A DNA stretch of 64,000 nt, from contig OY811976.1 in the NCBI GenBank assembly GCA_963681505.1, forward strand, positions 1,581,416 to 1,645,415, given 5' to 3'. The notes below the pieces were generated by a model. That model was not told the origin of the DNA. It ran no database searches and saw only the letters and a list, made by a program, of their open reading frames with translations. This DNA is from Eunapius fragilis (lineage: Eukaryota > Porifera > Demospongiae > Spongillida > Spongillidae). How positions within the stretch are numbered: the stretch's first letter is position 1; each line of letters begins with the position of its first letter. The translations under genes were made by a program, and so were the position numbers. Positions 3,077 through 59,290 of this stretch are shown one piece after another.

Positions 3077-3510
3077 TCAAATAATACCTCCACCTGAGGT
3101 TGCCATGCATCTCTTATCCCCAAATAATGCCTCTACCTGAGGCTGCCATGCACCTCTTATCCCCAAATAATGCCCTCCACCTAAAGTTGCTATGTATCTC
3201 TTATCCTCAAATAATGCCTCCACCTGAGGTTTCCATTCACCTCTTATCTCCAAATAATGCCTCCACCTGAGGTTGCCATGCACTTCTTATCCCCAAATAG
3301 TGCCTCCACCTGAGGCTGCCATGCACCTCTTATCCCCAAATAATGCCTCCACCTGAGGTTGCCATGCACCTCTTATCCCCAAATAATGCCCTCCACCTGA
3401 GGTTGCCATGCACCTTTTACCTCCAAATGTGCCTCCACCTGTGGTTGACATGCACTCTTATCCCCAAATAATGCCCTCCACCTGAGGTTGCCATGAACCT
3501 CTTATCCAAA
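3077..3510. repeat. 43-bp minisatellite array A
   Basis: About ten copies of a 43-bp unit (core CCTCTTATCCCCAAATAATG followed by CCTCCACCTGAGGTTGCCAT). Related arrays lie at 8340-8650 and 9740-10185. The flank to the right (AAGTCACAGCCCATCATCTC) is shared with the array at 8650, and the next 600 bp are shared with the region right of the third array. The array is therefore part of a larger duplicated block. Confidence 0.92.
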
Positions 3511-3519
3511 TCAAGTCAC

Positions 3520-4195
3520 AGCCCATCATCTCCTGTGCTAACACCCAGACAACTGATTGCATACGTCCATACCTCTGAGCCGTCCCTTCTTGTAATCAAA
3601 CGGCATGCTAAAGGGTTAAGGTGGCCCCACGGCCATCACATCTGAGAGGTATAGACCTGGATGTCAGACTCCACCAATAATGCACATCTAGTAAGACCAT
3701 ATCGGAACAGCATAAAACGACATGCATGTGAAAGTGGACTTGCATTGTGTCAGTTGATGTCTTTCCTTTCATTGATCTTCGATGCTGTCTATCGATAAGG
3801 GGTACAGTAAAGTATGATGCTTTCAAATTGCAGCAGAGTAGTCATATTTTCCTTAGCCTTTCCTGGCATTACTCCACATAGAATGACAATCTCATCCTTA
3901 ATAGCTTATCTTACTACTGAAGGCAGTGCCCGTTACAGAGCAGTTGCAGTTGGATCATAATTTGCAAGACCAGCAAGGGAAAGCTAGCAATTTTAAAAAT
4001 GCTTTTTACTGTTCTATGAATAAATGAATTGCATATGTTCATGCATGTGGGAAATTCCTCCGGACAAACACATCACGTCACATTTTTAAAAACGTTCATA
4101 TATCATGTGCATGAAATAAATCATACAGGTCTAGATTGACAAGCGGTAAACGGGGTGTTTTTTTTTTGGTGCATAATACCCTGATCCAGCAAGCC
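3520..4195. repeat. Upstream flank of PGAP2-like gene, duplicated at 10186-10837
   Basis: No gene is visible. This stretch matches 10186-10837 over most of its length (shared TTGCAGTTGGATCATAATTT, AGCAAGCCATG and others) with small indels. It therefore belongs to the duplication that copied the PGAP2-like locus and probably contains its promoter. No TATA box is obvious. A T-run at 4158-4168 is replaced in the other copy by a G homopolymer. Confidence 0.7.
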
Positions 4196-5663
4196 ATGAG
4201 TCATATTCCAACTAAAGCCTACCCGTACTCCTATTTTTCCTTATTCATTCTATTTGATCAGCTATTTGTACTGATAGTGATGTACGTCATCTGCTTCGCG
4301 CTTTATTCCGACGTCGCCGGTGAAACGGACTGCTCTGTGAGTGATATGGCTCTGTATACTTGACGCTGCGCATGTTGCATAATCAGCTATAGGCCTAGTG
4401 CACGTGAGTAATGCTGGCACGCAATTAAGACAAACGTATTTAGAGGGAAAGACTTAAGGTAACCTGAGTAGACATGCGGCATTATATGAATCGTGAGCTA
4501 TAGCATCGTCACATACTCTATATAAGACGCATGCAATCTTGATCTTCAAGGTCCCTAATATCTGGCCCACCATCTCCTCGCTTATCAGCGATTGGTTGCT
4601 TATTCGTGGCATTTCCCGGGTAGCTGTGTGTATGGTTATACTCCCGCGGATCGTTGATGCTCTGGTGTTCTTCAGATATTTCTCCTACGCGCCTTCGATC
4701 CGCAAGAGGTGGTACCGATGGTTGAATGTTTTCAACCTCTTGTGCTATCTGGCTCTGCTCGGTATGTACTACACGACCGTATTCGTCAGCTACAGTGAAG
4801 AGACAGGTAAGTTAGGTACTCATGCATTCATGTTGCTGTTCAGTACTCATGTTACATTGCTCTGCCGGTTACCTATCGCCATGCAGTTATTCATATGTAT
4901 TCCTGGATTGCTTTCTTATTTTTGTCTGCGGGGCAAATGACATCATTTCTATTTCTCTACGCGTTTGGAGGCTACACATTCAAGGTATATCAACTCATAC
5001 ATGTGTGTATCAGTGTTAATTGCGTGGATGTGTATTAACCAATGTGCATGTGTATTTGAACATGTTATCTGCATAACGCCCGTTCCCCTTTGCAGATGCG
5101 TTCCGCGGTGCAGCTTCGTGTAGCATTACTAGTGGTGCACGTCTTCTCTATCGTCGCCTTCCTTTATTTCAGTTTCCAACATGGCAGGTGTAAACCATAC
5201 GGTATATCCTTATAAATAGAATTGAGTTTGTTTTATGTACTTCAGTTGTTACCGTGCACTTGACATGTGTATGTGCGTAAATGTATGTGTGTAAATGCAT
5301 GTATTTGTGTGCATGTATGCGTGTGTGTAAAGATGTGAGCACGTGCAAAGATGTGAGAATGTCTATGCGTGTGCACATTATCGGTGCATGTTTGCGCATG
5401 TGCATGATGGTAGTTGGGCGTAGCCTGACTACATGCATAGTGCACTTGTGCGCGTCGTATGTGGATGTGCATGAGGTGCGAAACATTCTACATCCACAAG
5501 TATGTAACCAGGACAACCCTTAACCCATTTATCCCGCTCCATCACAGCCCACACTGGTGGTGGAATATGTGAATGCATCTTCGCTCTCAGCCATGCCTTA
5601 TACCATGCTGTGAGCCTCATCGACTTCAGAGGAGTATATTGCGTCATTTCTCACGATCAGTGA
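4196..5663 (+). CDS. PGAP2/FRAG1-like multi-pass membrane protein, five exons
   Basis: Exons 4196-4336, 4551-4806, 4887-4984, 5096-5201 and 5548-5663 join in frame across GT-AG introns (phases 0, 1, 0, 1) to give about 238 residues; animal PGAP2 is about 250. PGAP2 is a Golgi-resident membrane protein needed for lipid remodelling of GPI anchors (PF10277 Frag1/DRAM/Sfk1 family). Visible family features are a short cytosolic N terminus then a membrane helix, a lumenal segment ending DCS-VPNIWPTISS, the R-x-P-R-I-V region and next helix (about residues 70-100), VIHMYSWIAFLFLSAGQMTS around the fourth helix, and a last exon with GICECIFALSHALYH. The start is the first ATG before the first helix and matches the family N-terminal length. 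A decayed paralogue lies at 10838-11812. The family call rests on recalled similarity, not a search. Confidence 0.82.
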
Positions 5664-8859: not shown

Positions 8860-9698
8860 TCACTAGGCACGCCCCCTCAGGCCAATAAGGATGCTTGAAA
8901 CAGTTTTCTGGGATGGCTTGCAGATTTCATCCACAGGTACTCTTTCTTGCACTTCGGCAATATCTAGCAAGCGCTCTCTACGACCATTTACGTGTATAAC
9001 GGTGCCTCGATCTCTCATAGGATCATTTTCATGTTTGATCATATAGATTGATCAATGCTTACTAAACTGCATGCATACTTCAGTAAGAGTTAAATGTCCT
9101 ATTTCGTTCTTTAGAGTGCAGTGTGATATTGTAGTTTATTGCCGTATTGGGGAAGACTTTAAGTTACATCACCTCTTGCATGGTTGCATTATTCATATTG
9201 CATAGAGACGCGCATAAGAAAATCGATTACGCTATCACAGAACAAGCAATCACTATAGCGATCGTTTTAAATCCCGTGGAGTAGATTGTAAAACCCGACC
9301 TAAAATGCCACAGAAAGCTTGTGTTCAAGACAAGACAAAATCGCGGGTCCGTTACGCACAATTAATTAGGTTTCATTGTTGCAGTTTATACGAGGCACGC
9401 TGAACTTCAGAAGCCATCTTTTAGAATTGCTGTTAATTTTTGTTTAGCATCAGTACAGAAGCTATGTCACTTGATATTTTATAAAGAATACAGTTGTAAA
9501 GACAAAAACTCATAACACCACGCGCTAAGAATGATTGATCAATCTATGGTTAAAAACTGTACATGTGATTATTAATTACGATTAATGTCGCCTTTTGCCT
9601 TGCTAGTGTGGAAGCGCCTTTAGGAATCTTTCTCTTTTGTTCGTAATTTCCAATTAGTGAATGTTAATATTATTCTTTACGGGCCTGAAAGGGGTTGC

Positions 9699-9729: not shown

Positions 9730-10185
9730 TTCCCTAAATCCGCCACTGACCTCTTATCAATAATGCGTCGATCCAACTGAGGTTGTCATGCACCTCTTAT
9801 CCCAATAATGCCTCCACGTGAGGTTACCATCATGCACCTCTTAATGCATCCACTTGACGTTGCTCTTATGCCCATGCAAATAATGCCTCCACCTGAGGTT
9901 GCCATGCACCTCTTATCCCCAAATAATGCCTCCACCTGAGGTTGCCATGCACCTCTTATCCCCAAATAATGCCTCCACCTGAGGTTGCCATGCACCTCTT
10001 ATCCCCGAATAATGCCTCCAACTGAGGTTACCATGCACCTCTTATCCCCAAATAATGCCTCCACCTGAGGTTGCCATGCACCTCTTATCCCCAAATAATG
10101 CCTCCACCTGAGGTTGCCATGCACCTCTTATCCCCAAATAATGCCTCCACCTGAGGCTGTCATGCACCTCTTATCTCCAAATCAT
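9700..10185. repeat. Poly(C) tract and 43-bp minisatellite array C
   Basis: A C-run of about 29 at 9701-9729 and TTCCCTAAATCCGCCACTGA, which resembles a worn hAT-type terminus. After these come about ten copies of the 43-bp unit, the most regular being 9880-10160 with an exact 43-bp spacing. It corresponds to array A at 3077-3510 and starts the duplicated block. Confidence 0.88.
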
Positions 10186-10837
10186 GCAACTGATTGCATG
10201 CATCTATTCCTCTGAGTCGTCCCTTCTTGCAATCCAGGGACACGCTGAAGGGTTAAGGTACAGCTACCACATCTAAGAGGTCTAGACCTGGAGGTCGGAT
10301 TCCACCAATAATGTATGGCTAGGCCATCTCAGAGTTGCATGTGAAAGTGCATGGTAGTTCTGAAGTGGAAGTGCATTGTGCGAGTTGATGTGGCTTTCCT
10401 TTCAATGATCTCTGTCGATAAGGGCTAAAGTTGCTCTCAAATTGCAGCAGGGTAGTCATATGTTCCTTAGCCTTACCTGGCATTACTTCACATTGGATGA
10501 CAATCTCACCCTTAATAGCTTACTTTACGACTGATGGCAGTGCCTGTTGCAGAGCAGTTGCAGTTGGATCATAATTTCCAAGACCAGCAAGAGAAAGCTA
10601 GCAATTGAAATAAAAGCTTTTTATTGTTCCTTCTAGTAACGAATAAGTGAATTGCATATAGTCATGCACGTGGGAAAATGCTCCGAACAAGACACATCAC
10701 CTCATATTTTTATAAATGCTCATTTAACACGTGCGTGCAATAAACCAGACAGGCCTAGGTTGACAAGCGTACGGGCAGGGGGGGGGGGGGGGGGGGGGGT
10801 GTCTTTTTTTGTGCATAATACCCTGATCCAGCAAGCC

Positions 10838-11812
10838 ATGGGTAACATTCCAACTAAAGCCTACCTGTATTCCTATTTTCCCTCATTCATTCTATTGATC
10901 AGCTATTTGTCCTGATAGTGATGTACGTCATCTGTTTCACACTTCATTCCGACGTTACCGATGAACGGACTGCTCTGTGAGTGATATGGCTCTGTATACT
11001 TGAATCTGCGCATGTTACATGATCAGCTATAGCCTGTAGGCCTAGTGCAAGTGAGTAATGTCTACACGCAATTAAGACAAACGCATTTATAGGGAGAATA
11101 CCTTGAGTAGAAATGCAACATTAAATGAATCGTGAGCTATAGCATCGTCACATACTCTCTATAAGACACATGCAATCTTGATTTTCATGGTCCCTAATAT
11201 CTGGCCCACCATCTCTTCGCTGCGGCATTTTCCGGGCAGCTGTGTGTATGGTTATACTCCCGAGGGTTGGTTGCTCTAGTATTCTTCAGTTACTTCTATG
11301 TGCCTTCGATCCGCAAGAGGTGGTACCCATGGTTGAGTTTCCAACCTCTTGTGCCATCTGGCTCTGCTCATTATGTACTACACGACCGTATTCGTCAGCT
11401 GCAGTGAAGAGACATGCATGTTAAGTACCCATGCATTCATGTTGCTGTTCAGTACTCATGTTACATTGCGCTGCTGGTTACCTATCGCCATGCAGCTATT
11501 CATATGTATTCCTGGATTGCTTTCTTATTTCTGTCTGCGGGGCAAGTGACATCATTTCTATTTCTCTACGCGTTTGGAGATTGCATATTCAAGGTATATC
11601 AACTCGTTTGTATATTAATTGTGTGGATTTGTGTGATTATAGTTTAACCAATGTTCATGTGTATTTAAGCATGTTATCTGAATACTGCCAGGTCCCCTTT
11701 GTGGATGTGTTCCGCATGCAGTGCAGCTTCATGTAGCTACTAGTGGTGTATGTCTTCTCTATCGTCGCCTTCCTTTATTTCGGTTTCCGACATGGCAGGT
11801 GTAAACCATACG
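10838..11812 (+). pseudogene. Decayed duplicate of the PGAP2-like gene
   Basis: Exon-by-exon copy of the gene at 4196-5201, highly similar, including introns. Lesions visible: one T lost in exon 1 (TTCTATT-GATCAG), shifting the frame; the exon 2 acceptor AAG changed to ATG near 11189; a gap of about 25 bp and other changes in exon 2; and the exon 4 acceptor TGCAG changed to TGTGG. Exon 3 is intact. Exon 5 is absent because the copy jumps to the 6710-like segment at about 11905. A poly(G) run of about 23 lies upstream at 10777-10799. A nonfunctional copy is well supported. Confidence 0.85.
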
Positions 11813-11904
11813 GTATCGTTATAAATAGAATTGAGTTTGTTTATGTACTTCAGTTGTTAGCGTGCCCTTAAAATGGCATGTGTATGTGTGTAAATATATG
11901 TGTG

Positions 11905-12160
11905 CATATGCTTCCGCGCGCACGTGGTAGAGGTCAAATAATGCCCCAACGACGATGCCATATGGAAAGACCATGACATATATTGCTGACAATTCTTATG
12001 TACTACCAATTAATGTCTTCGTAGATCCAACAAGTGAATTCAATAATTGATGCTGCATTCAATCGATCAATAATCTTGTATGGTGCCTGCCAAGAGGATG
12101 CCAGCTTCTCCCATTCTACACCGCGGGTACATATGTATCCACACTTGATCTCCCGCGTCC
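11905..12160. repeat. Second copy of the 6710-6985 segment
   Basis: Starts at ATGCTTCCGCGCGCACGTGG and follows 6710-6985 with scattered substitutions and small indels. It abuts the PGAP2 pseudogene directly, so the sequence matching 5290-6700 was lost from this copy or never carried. No intact coding frame. Confidence 0.8.
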
Positions 12161-12239: not shown

Positions 12240-12600
12240 GCTGTTCAACCCCGACTACGAATGTCATTAAAAAAACGCGACCCATTTACGACGAGACTCC
12301 TGATCATCGTATAGTTGTTATAATCGAATGAGAAGACGAAAGGAGTAATTTCGTCATTTGTTTCATGTCGCAAAACCGCGCGGTTGTAGAGAACAAAAGG
12401 GTACTGCCGTCCTCGTACCCAGTTACGAAATTATCCTCCTTCTTCTTGACTTGGGATTGGAACACATTAAAAGAATGGAAATTTCACCAATAGCTTCTGA
12501 ATTGGCTGGTGGAGTGCCTACTGTGATCAAATAGTCGATTGTATATTTTGGTAATCGTATTGTTATATTTGGGTCGTACTAGCGTGGAAGGCTGCAAGAA
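12240..12600 (+). mobile_element. Composite-repeat 5' module, copy 1
   Basis: Matches 29448-29760 and 53040-53320 on this strand and the complement of 17200-17440. Shared blocks include CCGACTA-GAAT, the palindrome AACCGCGCGGTT (12374-12385), GAGAACAAAA and GAAAATTTCACCAATAGCTTC. The terminal stem-loop seen in other copies is missing here. The module is directly followed by a start codon at 12625 (SAP-like fragment), so it looks like a promoter and 5' leader. What element it belongs to is unknown. Confidence 0.6.
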
Positions 12601-15395: not shown

Positions 15396-15399
15396 TACC

Positions 15400-15680
15400 A
15401 GTAAATAAAAAAACCTTCTCTATGAGAAAGTTGGTGCGATATAGGATTTGAAGGCAATGGTGGTGTAAAAAGCAAGGAAACAAGGATCTGTAATAGTAAG
15501 GGAAAATGTCATAGTCCTATATTTAGCACACAAACGTAGTATATGTACAAACGAGCTAATTATAGGACTATGACATTTTCCCTTACTATTACAGACTCTT
15601 GTTTCCTTGCTTTTTACACCACCATTGCCTTCAAATCCTATATCCTACCACTTTCTCATAGAGAAGGTTTTTTATTTACT
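15400..15680. mobile_element. Long hairpin (fold-back) element, copy 1
   Basis: A 281-bp near-perfect inverted repeat. Left arm starts AGTAAATAAAAAAACCTTCT and the right arm ends with its complement. Arms of roughly 120 bp or more surround a short loop near 15520-15560. Shared internal motifs (GTTGGTG, GGTGGTGTAAAAAGCAAGG, GTCCTATATTTAGCAC) identify five close relatives at 22023, 30107, 49835, 53511 and 60744. In copies that also carry the module it sits on the far side of the KR-rich coding start. Confidence 0.88.
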
Positions 15681-15689
15681 TGTTTAATT

Positions 15690-16545
15690 CATTTTTTCTT
15701 TGTTCAAGCACATTATTCCAATGCGTAATTGATCCGTTGTGCATGTACCCATGCAGACTAAAAAAGAACAGGTGTCGTCGTTGGGGCCAAATATTATCTA
15801 CGAAATAGTTGTAAGACCAAGCCCAATAACATGTTTAATATGCCACAAGGCACAGTAATATAAACGGTTAATTCAGCACAGAACTTTTAATTGTAATAAT
15901 AATATATCAGAATAAAAATTAAAAAATCCCCTTTTTTTCATTCAGTGCCTTTTTAAGCACTGCATCTGCACTAACTTTACTGACAGCAGCATGTGCAGAT
16001 CTGGTACACACCTTTTGTGCTAACCATGGGTGCGTCTTGCAAAAGGGATCATTTCACTTAACTAGTAAAGTGCTATTCTTAAGAATAGCCTTTTTGAGGC
16101 CACCCTTATACTCGCTTAGTACGATATCCTTTGGTTTGTACAGAGTAGCTACAGTGAAAAAGGAAGTGCGCAACATTATGTGTGTGCAAAACCATACGCC
16201 TAGGCTTGAAAGCTATACTCATTTAACCTCCAACAGTTGCCCACTAAAATGGAAAATTAGTTTCATGCCATGCAATCACACTATCTGCTCGTAACCTCAG
16301 GTGTAACTGAAGCCATATCAATGCACTGATGATATCAGCATTTCCCTATGATTGCTGTGCTCATATAGTTACAGTTACACAAATATACACAATGCATATA
16401 TATATATGATATATTTGCGTCAGACTTGCGTAAACTAGAGAGTTCAAACAATAACTGCATGCATCTGATCAGCAGCTGACACCGGAATGAAACTAAAGTC
16501 TATTCCAACATCACGTAACGGCACTGACAAAAGGAAACCCTGATG
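15690..16545. other. Extra sequence inside composite repeat
   Basis: In the copy at 29.4-30.4 kb the hairpin flank (TTCATTTTTTCTTTGTTC) is followed almost at once by TTCAGCCACCAAT. Here about 820 bp intervene (about 15725-16548), so this is probably a later insertion. I see no TIR or coding region in it. Confidence 0.5.
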
Positions 16546-16637
16546 CAACGTTCAGCCACCAATATCGTATTGTAAACCAAGCTTAGTAGTAAGAGTAAGT
16601 AGCTACATTTACATACCTTTGAATAACTTTATCGGTA

Positions 16638-16875
16638 GGGTAGCGTCAGGTATATTCGCCAGGGGGGAGTAGTCGCCACCCGCACTTTTAATAGCGTATA
16701 AAAACTAAAATAATAAGTTTGGATCTTTCTATATGAGTTTAAAACAACCCTAACAGGCTCCTTTGTTAGCAGCATACACAGTTTTACGCAAGTAACGTTG
16801 CTCTGTTGAATAAACAGGGGGGGTGGCGAACACTCCTGACGTTATCGCAGGTGGCGATCACTACCTACGCTACCC
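16638..16875. mobile_element. MITE with GGGTAGCGT termini
   Basis: 238 bp bounded by inverted GGGTAGCGT(C)AGGTA / TACCTACGCTACCC and flanked by TA on both sides. The homologous site at about 29975-29990 (inverted) lacks it, giving an empty-site comparison. Interior includes two G-runs (AGGGGGGAGT and AGGGGGGGTGG). A TA target suggests a Tc1/mariner-type or similar transposase; no coding capacity. Confidence 0.75.
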
Positions 16876-17300
16876 TAGTTCTCTTTCGATGGTTTTTCAG
16901 GGTACGCTTAGCCTTCCCGTACTGCACTCTCTTCGCCAAGCGAGCGGATTTAGAACTCTCCCAATAACGTTGCCTTTTAGCGGACCGTTTCTTTTCTGAG
17001 TCTTCAGAGTTCTTGATACCCGTTCGCGGACCGTTTTTATTCTGGGTCTGCTTGATACCTATTTTTTAAGATATCTAAAATTATGTCTTACAAGTTATCT
17101 AATTATGCGTCTTATATATACCGTATAGTCGATTGTTTACCAAAATATAACATCGGCTATTTTATATGAAAGCGACTCTTCCAGCTTATTCTGAAGCTAT
17201 GGGTGAAATTTTCATTGTTTAAAAGTGTTCGTTGCCAAGAAGGAGGAAACCATGTTCCGGGACTGAGTACGAGGGCGGGCAGTACCCTTTTGTTCTCTGC

Positions 17301-17312
17301 AACCGCGCGGTT
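17301..17312. promoter_or_regulatory. Conserved 12-bp palindrome AACCGCGCGGTT
   Basis: Perfect palindrome in the 5' module. Also at 12374-12385, 29586-29597 and, with one change, 53175-53186. Neighbouring bases vary more than the palindrome. A dimeric DNA-binding protein site is an inference. Confidence 0.45.
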
Positions 17313-17484
17313 CTATGACATAAAACAAAGACAAAACTGCTCATTTTTGACTTCTAGTTCGATTGCTATAACAAGCTAAACGATCAGATCGTTGGGAGTC
17401 TTGTTAGTGACGGTGGCGTATTTTAATGAATTCATAGTCGGGGTCAAATCCTATATGGAAGTTTCTAGCGAAACTTCCGATTTG

Positions 17485-22022: not shown

Positions 22023-22306
22023 AACAAGTAATAAAAACATTCTCTATACGAGAAGGTTGGTGGTATATAGGAATCAAAGTTGATGGTGGTGTAAAAAGCA
22101 AGGGAACAAGGCTTCTGAATGAAAAGGAAAAATGAAATAGACCCATATTTGCAGCATGTTGTCATATTTAACTGTGTGTGCTAATATAGGTCCATATTTA
22201 ATTTTTCCTTTCAGAAGCCTTGTTCCCTTGCTTTTTACACCACCATCACCATTGATTCCTATATACCACCAACCTTCTTGTATAGAAAATGTTTTTATTA
22301 CTTGTT
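22023..22306. mobile_element. Long hairpin element, copy 2
   Basis: About 284 bp. Left arm AACAAGTAATAAAAACATTC, right arm its complement, with the same GGTGGTATATAGG, GGTGGTGTAAAAAGCAAGG and GCTAATATAGGTC internal motifs as copy 4 (49835-50120). The bases to its right (TTGTATTTAGTTCTTGAAA) are also shared with copy 4, so the two composite repeats are co-linear. Confidence 0.88.
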
Positions 22307-22409
22307 TATTTTTCTTGTGGATTTGTTATTGTATTTAGTTCTTGAAAGTTATAGACCCAGGTAGCAAGAAGAGAGCGGAAGCAGAGAGCGAGATGCAATA
22401 CATCTATGC

Positions 22410-22598
22410 CTATGTAACTATTACAGAATGTGTTCCTTCCATTTTAGCGATATACCATGCGGCATGCTCATAATTTAGGATCCAACATTTATCCATGCTG
22501 TAACGTACCTTTGGGTGGTCATTTTGTTGGTCCTTTCGGGTAACACGCTTGACATGCACTCGGTTGGCAGATCTGGCAGCATCTGGATCTTTCCACAT
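22410..22598 (-). pseudogene. KR-rich protein start fragment
   Basis: A 62-codon minus-strand frame: DPDAARSANRVHVKRVTRKD, then KVRYSMDKCW. The pattern (P-x-x-AR-x-ANR-x-x-VKR) matches decayed fragments at 16885-17010, 50755-50870 and 54006-54092. From memory, repeated YWENPExxRxANRxxVKRK-type N termini occur on transposon helicase-like proteins in some invertebrates, but no helicase is visible here. It sits between hairpin copy 2 and the module at 22720-23160. Confidence 0.45.
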
Positions 22599-22719
22599 TT
22601 AGATGCTCGAATGGAATCAGAATTGTCCTTCAGATAGCATGGGAAACCCAATGAATTTGATAATGCTGGTTATTTTATACTGGTGTATCATGAACATTGT
22701 GATAGCTGATGTAATGTGC

Positions 22720-23160
22720 TATTTGTAGATCAAGACCAAATAAGGTACTACTCGTTTCAGCTAATTGCCCAATCGGTTAGGTGTTTAACAGACCCCTAAA
22801 GAGAACATCCGGACACATCCTGAAGCGATTGGTACACTTGGCGTTCTTAAACGTTCCTGTCGTGAGTTATGCTATCCCGAAGGAAGATGACGACGGAGGA
22901 GAAATTTTAGATGGGACTGAGTACGGACAATGGGGACGAGTATTTTTGTTCTCTAAAAGTGCACAGTCTTATGACATGGAAACAACGCAGAACTGTTCTT
23001 CTTTTTGATATTGCTCGATTGCCACTAAGAGCAAAGTGACCCAACTCTTGGCTGTCCTGCTAGATGCAAGTGACATTTTTAATGACTTCATGATATTGCA
23101 AAATTCCTATATGGAACCTACTCGCGTAGGTTCCGATGTGTACTTAGTGCCGACTATGCT
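22720..23160 (-). mobile_element. Composite-repeat 5' module, copy 3
   Basis: Co-linear with 51440-51870 (shared CAAATAAGGTACTA, TTGTTCTCTAAAAGT, CCTGAAGCGATTGGTACACT). Ends with the terminal stem-loop at 23113-23134: arms GGAACCTAC / GTAGGTTCC, loop TCGC, preceded by CCTATAT. The Ty3 element inserted about 130 bp further right. Confidence 0.65.
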
Positions 23161-29429: not shown

Positions 29430-30065
29430 AGGTGTAACCATCGGAAGTTTTGCCCGACTATGAATCTCATTAAAAATACGCGACCCGTCTCTAACAAGAC
29501 TCCCGACGATCAGATCGTTAAGCTTGTTATAGCAATCGAACTTGAAGTCAAAAATGAGCAGTTTCGTCTATGTTTAATGTCACAGAACCGCGCGGTTGTA
29601 GAGAACAAAAAGTGTACTGCCCGCCTCGTACCCAGTCCAGGAACATGGTCTCCTCCTTCTCTTTGGCAACGCATAACTCGGGATAGGAACACTTTTAAAC
29701 AATGAAAATTTCACCAATAGCTTCAGAATCGGCTGGAAGAGCCGCTTTCATATAAAATAGCCGATGTTATATTTTGGTAAACAATCGACTATACGGTATA
29801 TGTCAGACGCATAATTAGATAACATTTATCTTAAAGTAAAAATGGCAGCATCAAGGAGACCCGGTCCGCTAAAAGGCAATGTCATTGATAGAGTCCTGAA
29901 TCTGCTCGCTTGGCGAAGAGAGCGCGGTACGGGAAGGCTAAGTGTACCCTGCAAAACCAAACGAGGCCATCGAAAGAGTAAACCGATAAAATTATACAAA
30001 GGTATGTAAATGTAGCTACCTACTCTTACTAAGCTTGGTTTACAATATGACATTGGTGGCTGAAC
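29430..30065 (+). mobile_element. Composite-repeat 5' module with KR-rich start, copy 4
   Basis: Complement of 16550-17450 without the MITE. Starts in a truncated stem-loop (CGGAAGTTTTG), then CCCGACTATGAAT, AACCGCGCGGTT (29586-29597), GAGAACAAAA, ATGAAAATTTCACCAATAGC, and at 29842 an ATG followed by a basic coding start with a GTATGT donor at 30003. One frame includes PGPLKGNVID; another matches ESARLAKRARYGKAKCTLQN, the KR-rich type. Hairpin copy 3 follows at 30107. Confidence 0.6.
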
Positions 30066-30106
30066 ATTACGGATCAATGTGCAAGAACAAAGAAAAAATG
30101 AATGAA

Positions 30107-30395
30107 ACAAGTAAATAAAAAACCTTCTCTATGAGAAAGTTGGTGGGATATAGAACTTGAAGGCAATGGTGGTGTAAAAAGCAAGGAAACAAGGGTCTGT
30201 AATAGTAAGAGAAAATGTCATATAGTCCTATATTCAGCACACGAACATAGTGTATGCTACAAACGGGCTAAATATAGGACTATGACATTTTCCCTTACTA
30301 TTATAGACCCTTGTTTCCTTGCTTTTTACACCACCATTGCCTTCAAATCCTATATCCCACCAACTTTCTCATAGAGAAGATTTTTATTTACTTGT
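30107..30395. mobile_element. Long hairpin element, copy 3
   Basis: About 289 bp. Outer arms ACAAGTAAATAAAAAACCTT and complement, very close in sequence to copy 1 (15400-15680), including GTCCTATATTCAGCAC at the centre of the left arm. Confidence 0.88.
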
Positions 30396-34993: not shown

Positions 34994-35220
34994 GAAAGTA
35001 CGTCACTGCATGATAGTTTGGATTTACAATATATTTACTACTAATCAAATTGGTGCAAATGTGTTAGTAAATATGGTATATGTGACATCAACACAATAGT
35101 AAATATGAAGGATTCATTTACGATAGCGGGAATGTAACATATACAATATTTACATACACATTTGCACCACATTTGAACAGTATTAAATATATTGTAAATC
35201 CAAACTTTCATGTATACTGC
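34994..35220. mobile_element. CACTG-ended fold-back MITE, copy 1
   Basis: Left arm CACTGCATGATAGTTTGGAT TTACAATATATTTACT; right arm is its complement, ending in a worn TCATGTATACTG. Relatives are at 58256-58456 and 59095-59290. The empty site at 33910 shows it inserted into an existing duplicate. The CACTG start would suit a CACTA-group non-autonomous element, but target duplications are unclear. Confidence 0.7.
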
Positions 35221-49834: not shown

Positions 49835-50120
49835 ACAAGTGATAAAAACATTCTCTATGCGAGAAGGTTGGTGGTATATAGGAATCAAAGGCGGTGGTGG
49901 TGTAAAAAGCAAGGGAACAAGGATTGTGATTGAAAAGGAAAAAAGAAATAGACCTATATTAGCAGCATGTCGTCATGTTTAACTGTGTGTGCTAATATAG
50001 GTCTATTTCATTTTTCCTTTTCAATCACAATCCTTGTTCCCTTGCTTTTTACACCACCATCGCCTTTGATTCCTATATACCACCAACCTTCTCGCATAGA
50101 GAATGTTTTTATCACTTGTT
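49835..50120. mobile_element. Long hairpin element, copy 4
   Basis: About 286 bp. Left arm ACAAGTGATAAAAACATTCT and complementary right arm. Sequence closest to copy 2 (22023-22306). It lies in what would be an intron of the SWIM-YqaJ gene. Confidence 0.88.
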
Positions 50121-50754
50121 TCCTACATTTTTTGGTAGATTTAGTATTGTATTTAGTTCTTGAAAAGTAACCATGTAGCAAGAATGTCAAATGACAGTTT
50201 TATTTTAGAATCTCGTGGCCATGCAATTTTTTGAGGTGTGGGTGTACCATTAAAACACACAGTATTACTATTTAAACAATAAGTACAAGTATTTCATTTA
50301 CAACCCAGGAGCATGTCATCTTGTATAGGATATACTGCTGTATATTCTGGACCAGGATATACTTCTGTATATCCAGGATATATAGCAGGTAGAGCAGGTG
50401 GAGCTAATCCTGCAGCTGGACATGGACCTGAAACAGGTGATTTAAACAACCATTAGTTAAAACAAATCCTCCACTGGCAAGTGAAGCCATATAATACATC
50501 AGACAAAGATTACATGTACCCACTGATCTCACGCTATTATCAGATAAACCACAATACGTTGTCATCAGCAACTTTGATACTATTAGATATAAATTATGCA
50601 CCACAATACACGTTAACATTATTACGAAATTGTTGTCAGCGAACAGCGTGCACATATTTCAAACAACAGCACGGAGAGAGATGCAATATCTTCCGCTGTA
50701 AATGTTGCATAAAATATTTTAGCGATACACTATACATGCTATAATTTATGTCCA
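50121..50754. other. Composite-repeat spacer; no gene recognised
   Basis: Starts like the spacer right of hairpin copy 2 (TTGTATTTAGTTCTTGAAA), then contains sequence absent there, including a short repeat of GGATATACTGCTGTATATTC / GGATATACTTCTGTATATCC near 50330-50380. Confidence 0.5.
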
Positions 50755-50870
50755 GATCCAACATTCATGGTGTAACGCACCTTCGGGGTGGTCGCTTTGA
50801 TGGTCCTTCCAGTAGCGCGCTTGACACCTTGTCGTGTCTTGTATTGCACTCGTTTGGCATATCTGTAGGT
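50755..50870 (-). pseudogene. KR-rich protein start fragment
   Basis: Minus-strand frame RYAKRVQYKTRQGVKRATGR, then TIKATTPKVRYTM. It parallels 22410-22598 (KVRYSM) in the co-linear composite repeat. Too short and isolated to be functional. Confidence 0.45.
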
Positions 50871-51439
50871 GTACGAGTGGCTAGTTGTTGCCGGGTTTTT
50901 TTTCTGTAAGGGCGGTGGTGTGGGGGAGACACATTCTAATTGGAGCCTCTTGCTTCACATTATCTGCTGTAGACTGTATACCGTAGTATCTGATCGCGTA
51001 TGTAGTTCCACCGACATAATTCGAAAGTTATGCTATATAAGAAGCTATAGTATAGAAATCAATTCGGTGAAAACAATTATATGCGATAGTGTCGGGTACT
51101 TACGTGTATGGTAGTTTTGGCTTTCATTTCAAGCTGCGTAACGAATGATAAGAGTTGCAATTGAGAGTAACGCACAGGCGTCATGTAGAAAATGATACCT
51201 TGAATATTCCTCAGGAGCCTTCCTATAACGTTATCGCTGCTCCATTCCGTTTCTCAACCATTTGGCATTATGGTTGGACATTTATACATGGAGCCGTAGG
51301 GACCCGAAAAGGCTCTTGGATTCAGTGCGTATACCTCTTCCACAGCGTGCGGGATTATTAAGAATTTGAATCACGCCCACGACACGTGGCTATTAATGCA
51401 TTTAAAAATAGCTAGCTGATGTAATTGGGTATTTTTAAC

Positions 51440-51870
51440 CGAATACCAAATAAGGTACTATTCGCTTTAGTTAATTGCCCGAACAGTTAGCGTCTAACAG
51501 ACCCCCGAAGATAACCTGCGGACGCATCCTGAAGCGATTGGTACACTTGGCGTGCTTTACAAACGTTCCTGTCGTGAGTTATACTCTCCGGAAGGAAGAA
51601 GAAGAATAAGAAGAAGCCGACGGAGGAGAAATTTTAGGTGGAACTGGGTACGGACGATGGGGACGAGGATTTTTGTTCTCTAAAAGTACACCGTCTTGTG
51701 ACACAAATACAACGCAGAACTGTTGTCCTTATTTATATCGCTCGAATGCCACTAAGAGCGAAGTGACCCGATTCTTAAATGTCCCGCTAGACGTGAGTGA
51801 CGTTTTTTTAATGACATTCATGATACTGTTGGATTCCTATATGGAACCTACTCGCGTAGGTTCCGATACA
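51440..51870 (-). mobile_element. Composite-repeat 5' module, copy 5
   Basis: Co-linear with 22720-23160. Ends with the stem-loop at 51843-51864 (arms GGAACCTAC / GTAGGTTCC). The AACCGCGCGGTT site is degenerate in this copy and in 22720-23160. Confidence 0.65.
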
Positions 51871-52904: not shown

Positions 52905-53320
52905 ATTTCAATCTCTAGCAAACTTAGTTTTGTTAGTATAGCCCACAACAGATTTTATCGGCCTTTGGAGGACATAAAAGTGGGCGGGAACGTACGTTCT
53001 ATATTTCATGTCGGAAGTCTCGCTAGAGACTTCCATATAGGTTTTGAACCCGACTATGAATTTAATTAAAATCCCGCGACCCTACCGTAGCTTCACTCCC
53101 GACGATCGGATCGTCTAACTTGTTGCGGCAATCGAGAAAAACCTGAGTAGTTTCGTTTTTGTTTCACGTCGTAGAACCGCGTGGTTGTCGAGAACAAAAA
53201 TACTGCTGTCCTCGTTCCCCTTCCAAACATAATGGGCGGGTCGTCTTCTTCTGCTTCTTCTTCTTGGGAACTCATAACTCGGGACATGAACACTTTTTAT
53301 TGCACCAATAGCTTTAGAAT
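52905..53320 (+). mobile_element. Composite-repeat 5' module, copy 6
   Basis: Begins with the stem-loop at 53013-53034 (on this strand arms GGAAGTCTC / GAGACTTCC, loop GCTA), then CCCGACTATGAATT, GTAGAACCGCGTGGTTGT (the palindrome with one change), GAGAACAAAA and CACCAATAGCTTTAGAAT. Hairpin copy 5 and then a KR-rich frame follow. Confidence 0.62.
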
Positions 53321-53510
53321 TTGCTGGAGGACTCGCCATAGTCGATGTCAGGCTTTGATACGCAAATGCCTAAAGACCTATATACGGTCTTATCAAGTCT
53401 AATTAAGCTAAAGTACCTAGATAATTTTCACAATACGTCCGGATTGAAGTTAAATGAAAGGGGGGAAAACTGCAATGCAACAGTGATTTGGTGTTAAAAA
53501 AATTAAGGAA

Positions 53511-53803
53511 ACAAGTAAATAAAAACATTCTCTCTGAGAATGTTGGTGGGATATAGGTTTTTCAGGCAAATAGTATACTGGTGTAAAAAGCAAGGAAACA
53601 AGTTTTATCAGAAAGGAAAATGTAATAGTCCTATATTTAGCACAGAAACAGCATATGCCTTAGTCAAAGTGTGCTAAATTTAGGACTATTACATTTCCCC
53701 GTCTGATAAAACTTGTTTCCTTGCTTTTTACACCAGTATACTATTTGCCTGCAAAACCTATATCCCACCAACTTTCTCAGAGAGAATGTTTTTATTTACT
53801 TGT
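53511..53803. mobile_element. Long hairpin element, copy 5
   Basis: About 293 bp. Arms ACAAGTAAATAAAAACATTC / complement, internal GGTGTAAAAAGCAAGGAAAC and GTCCTATATTTAGCACA as in the other copies. A diverged inner arm (TTTTCAGGCAAATAGTATAC) is mirrored exactly on the right side, so the stem is preserved despite sequence change. Confidence 0.88.
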
Positions 53804-54779: not shown

Positions 54780-55010
54780 ATTACCAGAGGTGGATCCCGG
54801 CTTACATTTACAGCACCTAGCTGGGAGTAGGCGTGCCCTGCTCCGCCCATTGCACCCCACCTTTGCCCACTGTTCGATTGCATGTTAGCAGATCAAACGG
54901 TCTCTTGTGTTACGATAGAGTATGATTCTAAGGTTGCCCAATTCATGCCTCAATATGCATATATACTTCCTCCTTCATTTATTCTCATGCATAAAAATGT
55001 GTGAAAAAAG
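54780..55010. other. No gene recognised
   Basis: Short AT-rich gap. CCAGAGGTGGATCCCGGCTT resembles a hAT-type end but has no partner nearby. Confidence 0.35.
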
Positions 55011-55272
55011 ATATTTAAAATAAAATTGGTGATGTAGGATTTGTAGATAGCAATTGGTAAAGAAACAAGGAATTACGGATATTAGACATTCATTTAATTA
55101 TAAATATTACAGACCTACATTATTTAGCAAATCTACCTCCTTGAAATTCTGTGCTAAATGTAGGTATGTAATTTTTAAAATTAAATGAATGCCTAATATC
55201 CGTAGTTCCTTGTTTCCTTACTTTTTACTCAATTGCTATCTACAAATCCTACATCACCAATTTTATTTAAAT
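55011..55272. mobile_element. Long hairpin element, divergent relative
   Basis: 262-bp inverted repeat. AATAAAATTGGTGATGTAGG and the rest of the left arm pair with the right arm. Shares TTGTTTCCTTACTTTTTAC and GTGCTAAATGTAGG with the main hairpin family but little else. Not associated with a module. Confidence 0.8.
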
Positions 55273-55425
55273 TAAATTTTTATATCTTGTCATATGGCAT
55301 GTTTAAATAAGGAGTTGGTTCCAAGAGGAAAATGGTATCGTCCTGATTGTGAATAGCAATTTAAAAGTAATTACTCATGTATGATATGCATGTATTAATT
55401 GAATGGTACAACTGATTCACACATA

Positions 55426-55754: not shown

Positions 55755-56805
55755 AAAGAGCACTACGCAAACCACAAGAAATGACATACCTTTTTCAACC
55801 GCGTTCCGTTGTGCCAGTTTCGGTTGCTCAACGGGAACACTTGTAGTGAGAGGTGATTAGCAACACTATTTCTCGTTAAATTAATCTTACCATTCAAACA
55901 ATACGCTGATCAGACTAACATCTCAAGAGTCTATTTTCAGAGTCTTCACATTTTAGCAATCAATTAAACGTGGTGATGAAATAGCCTGCCTAAAATTTAC
56001 GAATCACGTGCGGTAAGCAAACCAGATTCCTAATTGGAGCAGCCCTAAACCATAATTTAAACATTGTACATAACAATTTAATATGTTGATCTTAATAAAG
56101 TGGTTCCACAGGCAACTAACCTATGAGCTAGTGTATATATTATAATATTAATACTGCAAAATTGATAAGTCTCACTTATACTGTATTGTAAGATGCATAG
56201 TTTTTTTGAAGCCTGTAATACACCTTGTATTGTTATTTCCTATCATGATAGAAATTCTTGGCTAGATTGTACAGTTGATCTATAAAACCAAAGAAATGTA
56301 CTGCACATTTACCTTGCCATTTATACATACTGACACAGTACTGAGTGGTTAAAATTGTACATAGTCATTCATGCATAAATATTCCTTCTTATCGACACTA
56401 ACTCCTATTTAATGGAAGCTGCATCAAAGTTGAAATTTGCAAGATTGACATGTACAGTCTTGTGAAAAAAAGACACATCTGCTTCTGTGACATTGCAGGC
56501 TTGTGTGAGAGTGTGCCGGGGATGTGTGATGCGTACTTGTGTGATGAATGGGGGAGCATGGGCCGGTGTATGTTGAGGAAATGATTGAGTGTAAGTGAGG
56601 GAGAGTGAATGTTGAAGGAGTGATTAAGTGTGAGCATGTGCGAGTAAGTAAGTGAGCGAGTAGTGAGAGAGTGAGCGAATGAGTAATGAGAGAGCAAAAA
56701 AGATGTGAGTTTGTTGAGTGAGTAATAGAGCGAGTCAGTAAGAGAGAGAGGGAATTAACAGTATTGAGCATTTGCGTGTGTCATTGAGTGAATGAGGAAG
56801 CTGGT
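55755..56805. repeat. 1.05-kb tandem duplication, unit 1
   Basis: Starts AAAAGAGCACTACGCAAA and runs through ACCGCGTTCCGTTGTGCC, CACGTGCGGTAAGCAAACCA and a GAGT-rich tail. The next unit repeats it at about 56806-57846 with few differences. No gene recognised; the (GAGT)n-like tail gives open minus frames that are artefacts. Confidence 0.9.
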
Positions 56806-57846
56806 AAAAGAGCACTACGCAAAAACACAAGAAATGACATGCCTTTTTCAACCGCGTTCCGTTGTGCCGGTTTCGGTTGCTCAACGGGAACACTTGAAGT
56901 GAGAGGTGATTAGCAACACTATTTCTCGTTAACTTAGTCTTACCATTCGAACAATACGCTGATCAGACTAACATCTCAATAGTCTATTTTCAGAGTCTTC
57001 ACATTTTAGCAATCAATTAAACGTGGTGATGAAATAGCCTGCCTAAAATTTATGAATCACGTGCGGTAAGCAAACCACATTCCTAATTGGAGCAGCCCTA
57101 CACCATAATTTAAACATTGTACACAACAAATATGTTGATCTTAATAAAGTGGTTCCACAGGCAACTAACCTATGGGCTAGTGTATATATTATAATATTAA
57201 TACTGCATAATTGATTAGTCTCACTTATACTGCATTGTAAGATGCATGAAGCCTGTAATACACCTTATATATCATTATTTCCTATCATGATAGAAATTCT
57301 TGGCTAGATTGTACTGCTGATCTATAAAACCAAAGAAATGTACTGCACATTTACCTTGCCATTTATACATACTGACACAGTACTGAGTGGTTAAAATTGT
57401 ACATAGTCATTCATGCATAAATATTCATTCTTATCGACACTAACTCCTATTTAATGGATGCTGCATCAAGTTGAAATTTGCAAGATTGACATGTACAGTC
57501 TTGTGAAAAAACACACATCTGCTTCTGTGACGTTACAGGCTTGTGATAGAGTGTGAGATGTGTGATGTGTACTTGTGTGATGAATGGGGAGCATGGGCCG
57601 GTTTATGTGTGAGGAAATGATTGAGTGTGAGTGAGGGAGTTAGTGAATGTTGAAGGAGTGTGAGCATGTGCATGTAAGTAAGTGAGTGAGTAGTGAGAGA
57701 GTGAGTGAATGACAATATGAGAGAGCAAAAAGGATGTGAGTTTGTGAGTGAGTAATTGAGCGAGTCAGTAAGAGAGAGGGAATAAACAGTATTGAGAATT
57801 TAAGTGTGTGAGTGAGTGTGTCATTGAGTGAATGAGGAAGCTGGTA
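56806..57846. repeat. 1.05-kb tandem duplication, unit 2
   Basis: Direct copy of 55755-56805. Small deletions (for example TTTTTTTGAAGCC reduced to GAAGCC near 57245) distinguish it. The GAGT-rich tail continues to about 57990. Confidence 0.9.
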
Positions 57847-58255
57847 AATATAGTATATGAGAGTGTGTGAGTGTTGTGTGCGTAAGGGAGGGAGTGATTG
57901 TGTGGGGAAATCAGAATCTGTGATGTGTTAGGTGTGAAATGAAGTGAGTGAGTGTGTGACAGTGTGTTAAAGGGTTGGAGTGTGTTATAGTGTGTGGAGT
58001 AGGATTTCGGCCAGACCTTACAGTTTTTTCTTTGTCTATTGTTGTACCAATCACTGATTATATTTTACAATAAACTTATAATAGTACATTCAGTGAGACT
58101 AGATAGTGTAATGCAAATACATGCATGCCATGAACATGCATCACTTAGCTGCAAGTCTTTTCTACTCAGAAGGCTGCATTTATCTGAATAGTCTCTACCA
58201 AATATAACAGGTGTATCTACTTCCAAGCTCATGCATGTGTCAAAAGATTCAGGCA

Positions 58256-58456
58256 TGTGCACTGCATGAGAGTTTGGATTTAAAATATATTTACTGCTGA
58301 TCAAATGTGGTATAAATGTGTTAGTAAATATGGTTATGTGACATCAACACAATGGTAAATATAAAGGATTCATTTACTATCTAGCGGAAATGTTACATAT
58401 ACAATATTTATACACATTTGCACCGCATTGATCAGTAGTAATTCCAAATTATCATG
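58256..58456. mobile_element. CACTG-ended fold-back MITE, copy 2
   Basis: Starts CACTGCATGAGAGTTTGGAT and ends ATCATGCAGTG. Interior matches the MITE at 34994-35220 (GTTAGTAAATATGGTTATGT, ACATATACAATATTTA). Confidence 0.7.
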
Positions 58457-58459
58457 CAG

Positions 58460-59090
58460 TGAGGGCTGTTCCTATTTGAGTCAGACATTGTCTTGTAATA
58501 CAGCAGTAGCATGTGATCTATACATGATTTAATGTTACAAATGCTCTAGTATACATTGCAATTCAAATTCAACATATTTTGTTCCTCACTCATGTCAGTA
58601 GGAGCACCAAAGAAGATCATCACCAACGCAGTGAATCATAGCATGTCTGTTACATGCAAGAAAGCGATGGAACCTAGATGAGATTACTGGAGAACCCGAA
58701 ATCATATTTACTAGCCTACGTATCTGACATTGTAAAAACTATATCCTAAAGTACATATCTTTTATTCATATATAAATGCAGTATGCTGCTATATACATAA
58801 TTTAGTATACAGCTAACATGCGATCATAGCGAACAAAAGTCAAGCTCTAGCCACTATCAGTCGATGAATGGAGCACTCCATGTACTGGTTACTCGAAGCT
58901 ATTCCCTATCAAATATTTTACCTCAGCCACTTGCGAGAGTGAGTATATATGTATTGTACTGGTACCTAAAAGGATGTTAAAATGACCATGTCAGCATTTG
59001 TAAACAAGTATGATTATAGGACAAGGTATGGTTTTAACCGGACCACTTACTCCCTGAGGGAAAAAGTCAGTTGTGCCCCCCTGACGTATG
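58460..59090. other. No gene recognised
   Basis: AT-rich interval between two MITE copies; short ORFs only. Confidence 0.45.
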
Positions 59091-59094
59091 CATA

Positions 59095-59290
59095 TCACTG
59101 CATGAACGTTTGGATTTACAATATATTTACTACTGCTCAAATGTGGTGCAAATGTGTTTGTAAATATGGTCAACACTGCAGTAAATATAAAGTTTTCATT
59201 TACTATAGCGGAAATGTTACATATGCATACACATTTGCGCCACATTTGAACAGTAGTAAGTATATTATAAATCCAAGCTTTCATGCAGTG
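59095..59290. mobile_element. CACTG-ended fold-back MITE, copy 3
   Basis: Starts CACTGCATGAACGTTTGGAT and ends TTTCATGCAGTG; arms pair over about 55 bp. Third member of the family. Confidence 0.72.

Follow-up and report, generated by a model that had tools for sequence, protein, structure and literature searches.

The composite repeats of the window (the whole stretch of 64,000 nucleotides analysed, from contig OY811976.1 of Eunapius fragilis) are very probably deletion derivatives of a Helitron that encodes a RepHel protein, the promoter-like module being the left end side and the long hairpin the right terminal sequence (RTS) of the element.

Copies in the window and their boundaries

A BLAST comparison of the window with itself located the palindrome at 15.39-15.69, 22.02-22.31, 30.10-30.40, 49.84-50.13, 53.51-53.80 and 60.75-61.02 kb, and the module at 12.25-12.55, 17.06-17.48, 22.91-23.14, 29.45-29.82, 51.81-51.87, 53.01-53.22 and 61.32-61.44 kb, with the module at the same end in 6/6 module-plus-hairpin pairs. 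These are the six paired copies and the one module-only copy for which a preliminary description of this DNA had claimed a fixed order and orientation, and the claim holds. Its span of 15.4-17.5 kb contains an element with exact limits of 15398-17480; its module-only copy at 12.2 kb indeed has no hairpin, with the correction that the 5' end has decayed; and what it had called a basic coding start is a remnant of RepHel exon 1. The features are as follows (+ and -, strand).

15398..17480 (-), 2.08-kb non-autonomous Helitron of subfamily A, starting with TC (17480-17479)
17060..17481 (-), module with the left terminal sequence: host A at 17481, TC, stem-loop, AACCGCGCGGTT, GAGAACAAAA
16922..16999 (-), RepHel exon 1 remnant ('basic coding start'), 65% identity over 26 aa
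15925..16146 (-), RepHel exon 2 remnant, 73% identity over 74 aa with the full-length copy in L035
15391..15689 (-), giant palindrome (~290 nt) forming the right terminal sequence
22025..23136 (-), non-autonomous copy, subfamily D, two ends present
29441..30394 (+), non-autonomous copy, subfamily A, left stem-loop without its 3' half (deletion)
49836..51866 (-), non-autonomous copy, subfamily D, two ends present
53011..53802 (+), non-autonomous copy, subfamily B, two ends present, empty-site relative in L037
60745..61454 (-), non-autonomous copy, subfamily C, with decay of the left end and of the right CTTG
12248..12554 (+), module-only relic, first 37 nt unrecognisable, without palindrome
55005..55281 (no strand assigned), diverged palindrome, probable right-end relic, no assigned left end

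Regarding the copy at 15398..17480, the 9+4+9 stem-loop occupies 17478-17457, and the CTTG end, at about 15398, has decayed. Within the window, Rfam at the gathering score gave 0 matches and a tRNA search gave none. Other features of the window are a 2.2-kb direct duplication (3089-5298 and 9772-11911, 81% identity, with tandem repeats at the start), a minisatellite array at 1-1604 (23 bp spacing, matches in both orientations) and a GC skew of 0.294 at 56001-58000, the remaining 2-kb intervals ranging from -0.160 to 0.078.

Read in the direction of the module, the copies are preceded by a host A, start with TC, end with CTTG and are followed by a host T. The host A was present before 17/18 left ends (15 two-ended copies and three full-length left ends), the sole exception being the G before the window copy at 53.0 kb; the common base ahead of the target A is T. 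A T followed CTTG at 23/23 right ends (the 15 two-ended copies, the full-length C7 copy and seven near-identical palindromes), and the CTTG 3' end itself was found in 15/15 copies chosen for intact ends and in 8/8 near-identical palindromes. The 15 two-ended elements are those in which both ends were placed, some of them from the stem-loop scan described below and others among 32 left-end matches; because the copies counted were picked for recognisable ends, the proof of the boundaries lies in empty sites.

The clearest of these is provided by a nested copy of subfamily C (L009, 5100-6045), which lies within a subfamily A copy. When its joined flanks were compared with uninterrupted A sequence, 113/120 positions agreed in L012 and 103/112 in L022, without gaps, and the target is therefore A|T without duplication. 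The sharp boundaries and target sites that had been sought earlier can accordingly be given as A|TC…CTTG|T, with no target-site duplication. Altogether, 4/16 joined-flank queries yielded junction-spanning matches outside their own copy, one of them clean and two agreeing at the junction with gaps nearby (window 53011 against L037; L018 4001 against L014 and L021), while the joined flanks of a copy in L011 matched the window at 58.4 kb with gaps at the junction itself. A genome search for the empty site of the C7 copy returned its own 3' flank only.

Two other assignments were considered and rejected. A TT target, as in Helentrons, had been suggested by the frequent T before ATCG and is ruled out by the nested A|T empty site. 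A MITE of a DDE transposon does not fit an element that has neither terminal inverted repeats at its two ends nor a target-site duplication.

The full-length element and its distribution in the genome

Matches to Helitron_like_N (PF14214) were obtained at 91 places in the genome (219 Mb, 24 contigs). In L035, L038 and L039 a RepHel gene lies behind a left end built in the same way, i.e., A|TC followed by GAGAGTTAC GTTA GTAACTCTC. The gene reads as two exons, with an intron and a splice predicted solely by inspection of the sequence. Exon 1 encodes MPSRQEKKK... and basic PEKKRAS..YRA repeats, whereas exon 2 is an open frame of 1995 aa with DUF6570, Helitron_like_N, PIF1 and OTU domains; for the exon-2 frame of L035 the Pfam E values were 3.6e-24 (Helitron_like_N), 1.1e-21 (PIF1) and 3.4e-7 (OTU), and HxH, YxxxY and Walker A motifs were recognised by sight at 829, 970 and 1287, respectively. 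The module consists of the left end (TC and stem-loop), the region upstream of RepHel and part of exon 1; the mobile promoter considered earlier agrees with the module in position only. The window copy at 15.4-17.5 kb still holds remnants of both exons. A relative of the RepHel protein in Ephydatia muelleri showed 85% identity over the 501 residues searched (P0006); a literature search for Helitron together with Ephydatia gave no match.

On C7 the left end, the RepHel gene and the giant palindrome delimit one element of ~13 kb, which is the full-length copy with Rep and helicase between the two ends that the preliminary description had proposed to look for. Its palindrome (L041, 565-859) lies ~13 kb from the left end and is 82% identical to the window palindrome. 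The C7 copy (L038) and a copy on C20 (L039) show no difference in the 9,790 bp retrieved from both (100% identity) and have different 5' flanks; their transposition is therefore recent. C7 is the one full-length copy read to its 3' end, the others being linked by spacing, and the palindrome itself was read in seven of the spacing-linked copies.

Used as a genome query, the C7 palindrome gave 15 places at 99-100% and 25 at 88-90% identity among the matches listed. With all 91 Rep matches considered, a Rep hit lay 9.0-10.9 kb upstream, in the coding direction, of 15/15 listed palindromes with at least 99% identity, and at that spacing of 0/25 listed palindromes with 88-90% identity. With the 78 stronger Rep matches only (the last 13 of the 91 omitted) the figure was 14/15, at a chance of about 0.005 each; the Rep hit of the fifteenth palindrome (C20:40077) is a partial domain match. 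Together with the C7 copy, the 15/15 spacings support the Helitron-like candidate named at the outset. Regarding the listed left-end places with 99-100% identity, a Rep hit (78 stronger matches) was found within 6 kb downstream of 6/40; those without a nearby Rep hit are probably mostly non-autonomous copies. Other partners were tried and rejected: L036, from the group with the highest PF14214 scores, had no match to the window element, and neither had L029-L034, while the L037 family gave a weak match of 68 nt (E 3e-4) to the interior of the window element and had no inverted repeat in the 1.3 kb read, short of its 3' end.

A second open frame of the C7 Helitron (202 aa, L040 2105 to L041 about 113) lies near the 3' end and is rich in RGG/RGAR repeats; it may perhaps encode a nucleic-acid-binding helper or be a captured gene. 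About 30 bp separate the end of the C7 copy from a downstream ATG, the start of a signal-peptide-like frame (L041, 859-890), and the frames further on resemble a subtilisin-type protease. On C20, a palindrome identical to that of C7 (C20:49302) lies 9,040 bp past the partial Rep match at 40.1 kb, and a left end with Rep is found on the opposite strand from it at 93-97 kb; the region C20:40077-97396 is perhaps two copies, or one copy broken by an inversion.

The module was found at at least 40 places genome-wide (1294 first-look candidates) and the hairpin half in at least 78 matches (1744 first-look candidates). In the 20 module loci fetched from these 40 or more places, the nearest downstream hairpin, in either orientation, lay within 1 kb in 15/20 and within 3 kb in 18/20 (the closest one in L018 being part of an adjacent copy), as compared with 3/20 and 5/20 for the nearest upstream hairpin. 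In the opposite direction, a left end in the correct orientation was present within 3.1 kb of 34/34 listed palindromes, a biased list, since 28/34 lie in module-picked loci and fragments such as those at 7.1 and 55.0 kb of the window were omitted. The 9+4+9 stem-loop followed by TATAGG occurred 20 times in 313,325 bases (28 sequences, mostly module-picked) and 0 times in five mononucleotide shuffles; the scan required TATAGG and left the letters after it free. The motif is found just inside the left stem-loop and recurs in the palindrome arms at the right end, in a form specific to each subfamily: TATAGGATTTGA (A), TATAGGTTTTG (B), TATAGGAATTG (C), TATAGGAAT (D) and TATAGGATTGA (E), with deviations in single copies.

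These data bear on the view that the two components are independent repeats, the module being the 5' region of a gene and the hairpin a fold-back MITE, and owe their association to a joint local duplication. The hairpin alone does resemble a fold-back MITE, with the ends ACAAGT...ACTTGT, and its first-look candidates outnumber those of the module. However, the independence that had been named beforehand as the outcome speaking against a composite element was not observed: the pairing extends over many contigs, with a hairpin within 3 kb downstream of 18/20 modules, full-length RepHel elements are bounded by both components, and the letters after TATAGG agree between left and right end within each of the subfamilies A to E. 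This view is refuted for the family as a whole and is considered almost certainly wrong.

Structure of the two ends

The left stem-loop keeps its 9+4+9 shape across the subfamilies, with different letters in each. In 13 aligned left stem-loops, standard pairs filled 117/117 cells, two-sided changes were seen in 7/9 pairs, and in 26/117 pair cells both partners had changed without loss of pairing. Of the shuffles, 0/500 attained the pairing or covariation score of the real alignment, and slid registers gave 21.5 to 52.4% pairing; one of the five measures, that of further pair types, was not above the shuffles (407/500). Because the 13 came from a scan demanding at least 8/9 pairs, their full pairing is partly a product of selection, and the left stems of other copies are plainly broken by indels; matching but different stem letters in each subfamily are not easily produced by such picking.

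A palindrome of ~290 nt, with 133-bp arms and a terminal CTTG, forms the right end. Its consensus fold has 119 predicted pairs, 45 of them with a compensatory change among 14 copies; these changes are by themselves no proof of selection, because copying from arm to arm gives the same pattern. Outside the TATAGG motif on the right follow a short TTCTC..GAGAA hairpin and then CTTG, and each arm therefore resembles a complete Helitron right end. The palindrome looks like an inverted duplication of one such end. That it began instead as a fold-back MITE which landed at, or replaced, a Helitron right end and then spread with the Helitron would agree with the symmetry of its two ends and with the gain of new 3' ends by read-through, which the text available of PMC4778049 describes for Helitrons. 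Since a left end was found near 34/34 listed palindromes (the biased sample mentioned above), and since arms that each resemble a full RTS fit an inverted RTS duplication at least as well, such an origin is regarded as quite improbable. A separate palindromic family of ~200 bp, with no visible likeness to this one, was noted in the window at 35009-35212, 58260-58462 and 59096-59290 and in L016 at 9085-9289.

The element is a Helitron by its RepHel protein, its A|T target and its lack of a target-site duplication, with Rep (HUH/Y2) and a PIF1-like helicase in one protein (Pfam; motifs by sight). Its terminal features are mixed, and it is best classed as a Helitron with the giant palindromic RTS as a trait of its own. 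Insertion at A|T and 5'-TC are those of Helitron1. The 3' CTRR of that group is replaced by CTTG (15/15 and 8/8), and in place of a lone short palindrome (16-20 nt) ~11 nt from the 3' end, the short TTCTC..GAGAA hairpin sits inside the ~290-nt palindrome. As far as the text available of PMC4778049 goes, RepHel, 5'-TC, A|T, the absence of target-site duplication, a subterminal 3' hairpin and non-autonomous copies are shared with Helitron1 and Helraiser; the RTS palindrome of Helraiser is 19 bp and its end CTAG, whereas the present family has the ~290-nt RTS palindrome, CTTG, a left stem-loop and an OTU domain in RepHel. With Helitron2, for which the excerpted text of PMC3627910 reports hairpins at both ends with compensatory changes, it shares this two-ended arrangement as well as a short motif that is inverted between the ends and lies beside a short 3' hairpin. 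It differs from Helitron2, as portrayed there, in the placement of the shared motif just inside the left stem-loop rather than within it, in the A|T target with 5'-TC, and in a far larger 3' palindrome. The shared TATAGG motif is a possible counterpart of the asymmetric terminal inverted repeats that take part in the 5' hairpin of Helitron2. Helentrons, HINE and DINE-1 elements, according to the portions available of PMC4067079 and PMC5148889, likewise have OTU, subterminal inverted repeats, a 3' palindrome and short non-autonomous partners; Helentrons are described there with TT insertion and an AP endonuclease domain, whereas the target here is A|T. A Pfam search of the L035 and L037 open frames gave no endonuclease domain at E <= 0.001.

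Parvoviruses are HUH nuclease replicons with a terminal palindrome that occurs in two orientations, and the present family resembles them in these respects; unlike them it is a chromosomal transposon with one palindromic end and a PIF1-like helicase. A literature search directed solely at long palindromic or hairpin ends found no Helitron with a palindromic end of this length. The term 'undescribed', used in the preliminary description, can apply only to the giant palindromic end and to the two orientations in which it occurs, and not to the kind of element.

Orientation of the palindrome core and possible mechanism

Eight near-identical palindromes were read (L041 and L042-L048). Their 133-bp arms are free of mismatches in 2/8 (L041 and L047) and have one mismatched position in the other 6/8, a persistence that speaks against the arms being necessarily corrected whenever the element transposes. 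L041, L045, L046 and L047 have one loop orientation in common ('flip'), and the core is inverted ('flop') in L042, L043, L044 and L048. Compared with the core of L045, the flop core agrees at 60/61 positions with the reverse complement and at 43/64 in direct orientation. The element sequence beside the flop palindromes is unchanged in orientation, with two substitutions, and one upstream substitution is common to the flop copies and L045/L046; the private arm mutation of L045/L046 sits on the opposite arm in the flop copies. At least one in-place inversion of the core has happened, and one in an L045-like ancestor suffices. Judged by the matched strand, 4/15 near-identical palindromes among the matches listed are in flop orientation.

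Inverted repeats are generally known to recombine with inversion of the sequence between them, and a host recombination event of this ordinary kind (cruciform exchange between the palindrome arms), with no relation to transposition, is the somewhat favoured source of the two orientations. One such event accounts for four flop copies with identical palindromes; on the other hand, the arms, close together and matched as they are, are short for homologous recombination. For a single inversion event, plain recombination between the arms is more economical than fold-back during transposition, and it is possible that the inversion and the matched arms both arose from such fold-back.

A transposition pathway for the family can be proposed on the Helraiser model, which the excerpted text of PMC4778049 gives as left nick, helicase displacement, pause at the right hairpin, second nick, circle and insertion at A|T; the short 3' hairpin of Helraiser is presented there as a terminator that is sometimes bypassed. 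By analogy, the HUH nuclease would nick at A|TC of the left end and the helicase would displace one strand, in which the palindrome would fold into a duplex of ~133 bp, halting the helicase. The folded palindrome would expose CTTG|T for the second nick, like the short RTS hairpin thought to act in Helraiser; a circle would form and insert at A|T, as in the Helraiser model. The palindrome may thus serve as a transposition terminator, and fold-back of the arms would keep them alike and occasionally invert the core.

A CTTG site occurs at each foot of the palindrome, so placed that both strands have one. A right end that works as a hairpin replication end, with Rep nicking the folded palindrome and fill-in copying the hairpin, is considered unlikely; if it were true, matched arms would be regenerated, both flip and flop isomers would be made, and Helitron transposition would be joined with rolling-hairpin replication. 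The young family is a natural system in which to ask whether a stronger hairpin tightens 3' termination, and its palindromic end also allows one to ask whether a Helitron hairpin end is processed as a hairpin.

Two of the flop copies, L044 and L048, located on C3 and C6, share their 3' flank as far as it was read, for which segmental duplication, a shared repeat target and 3' transduction are candidates.
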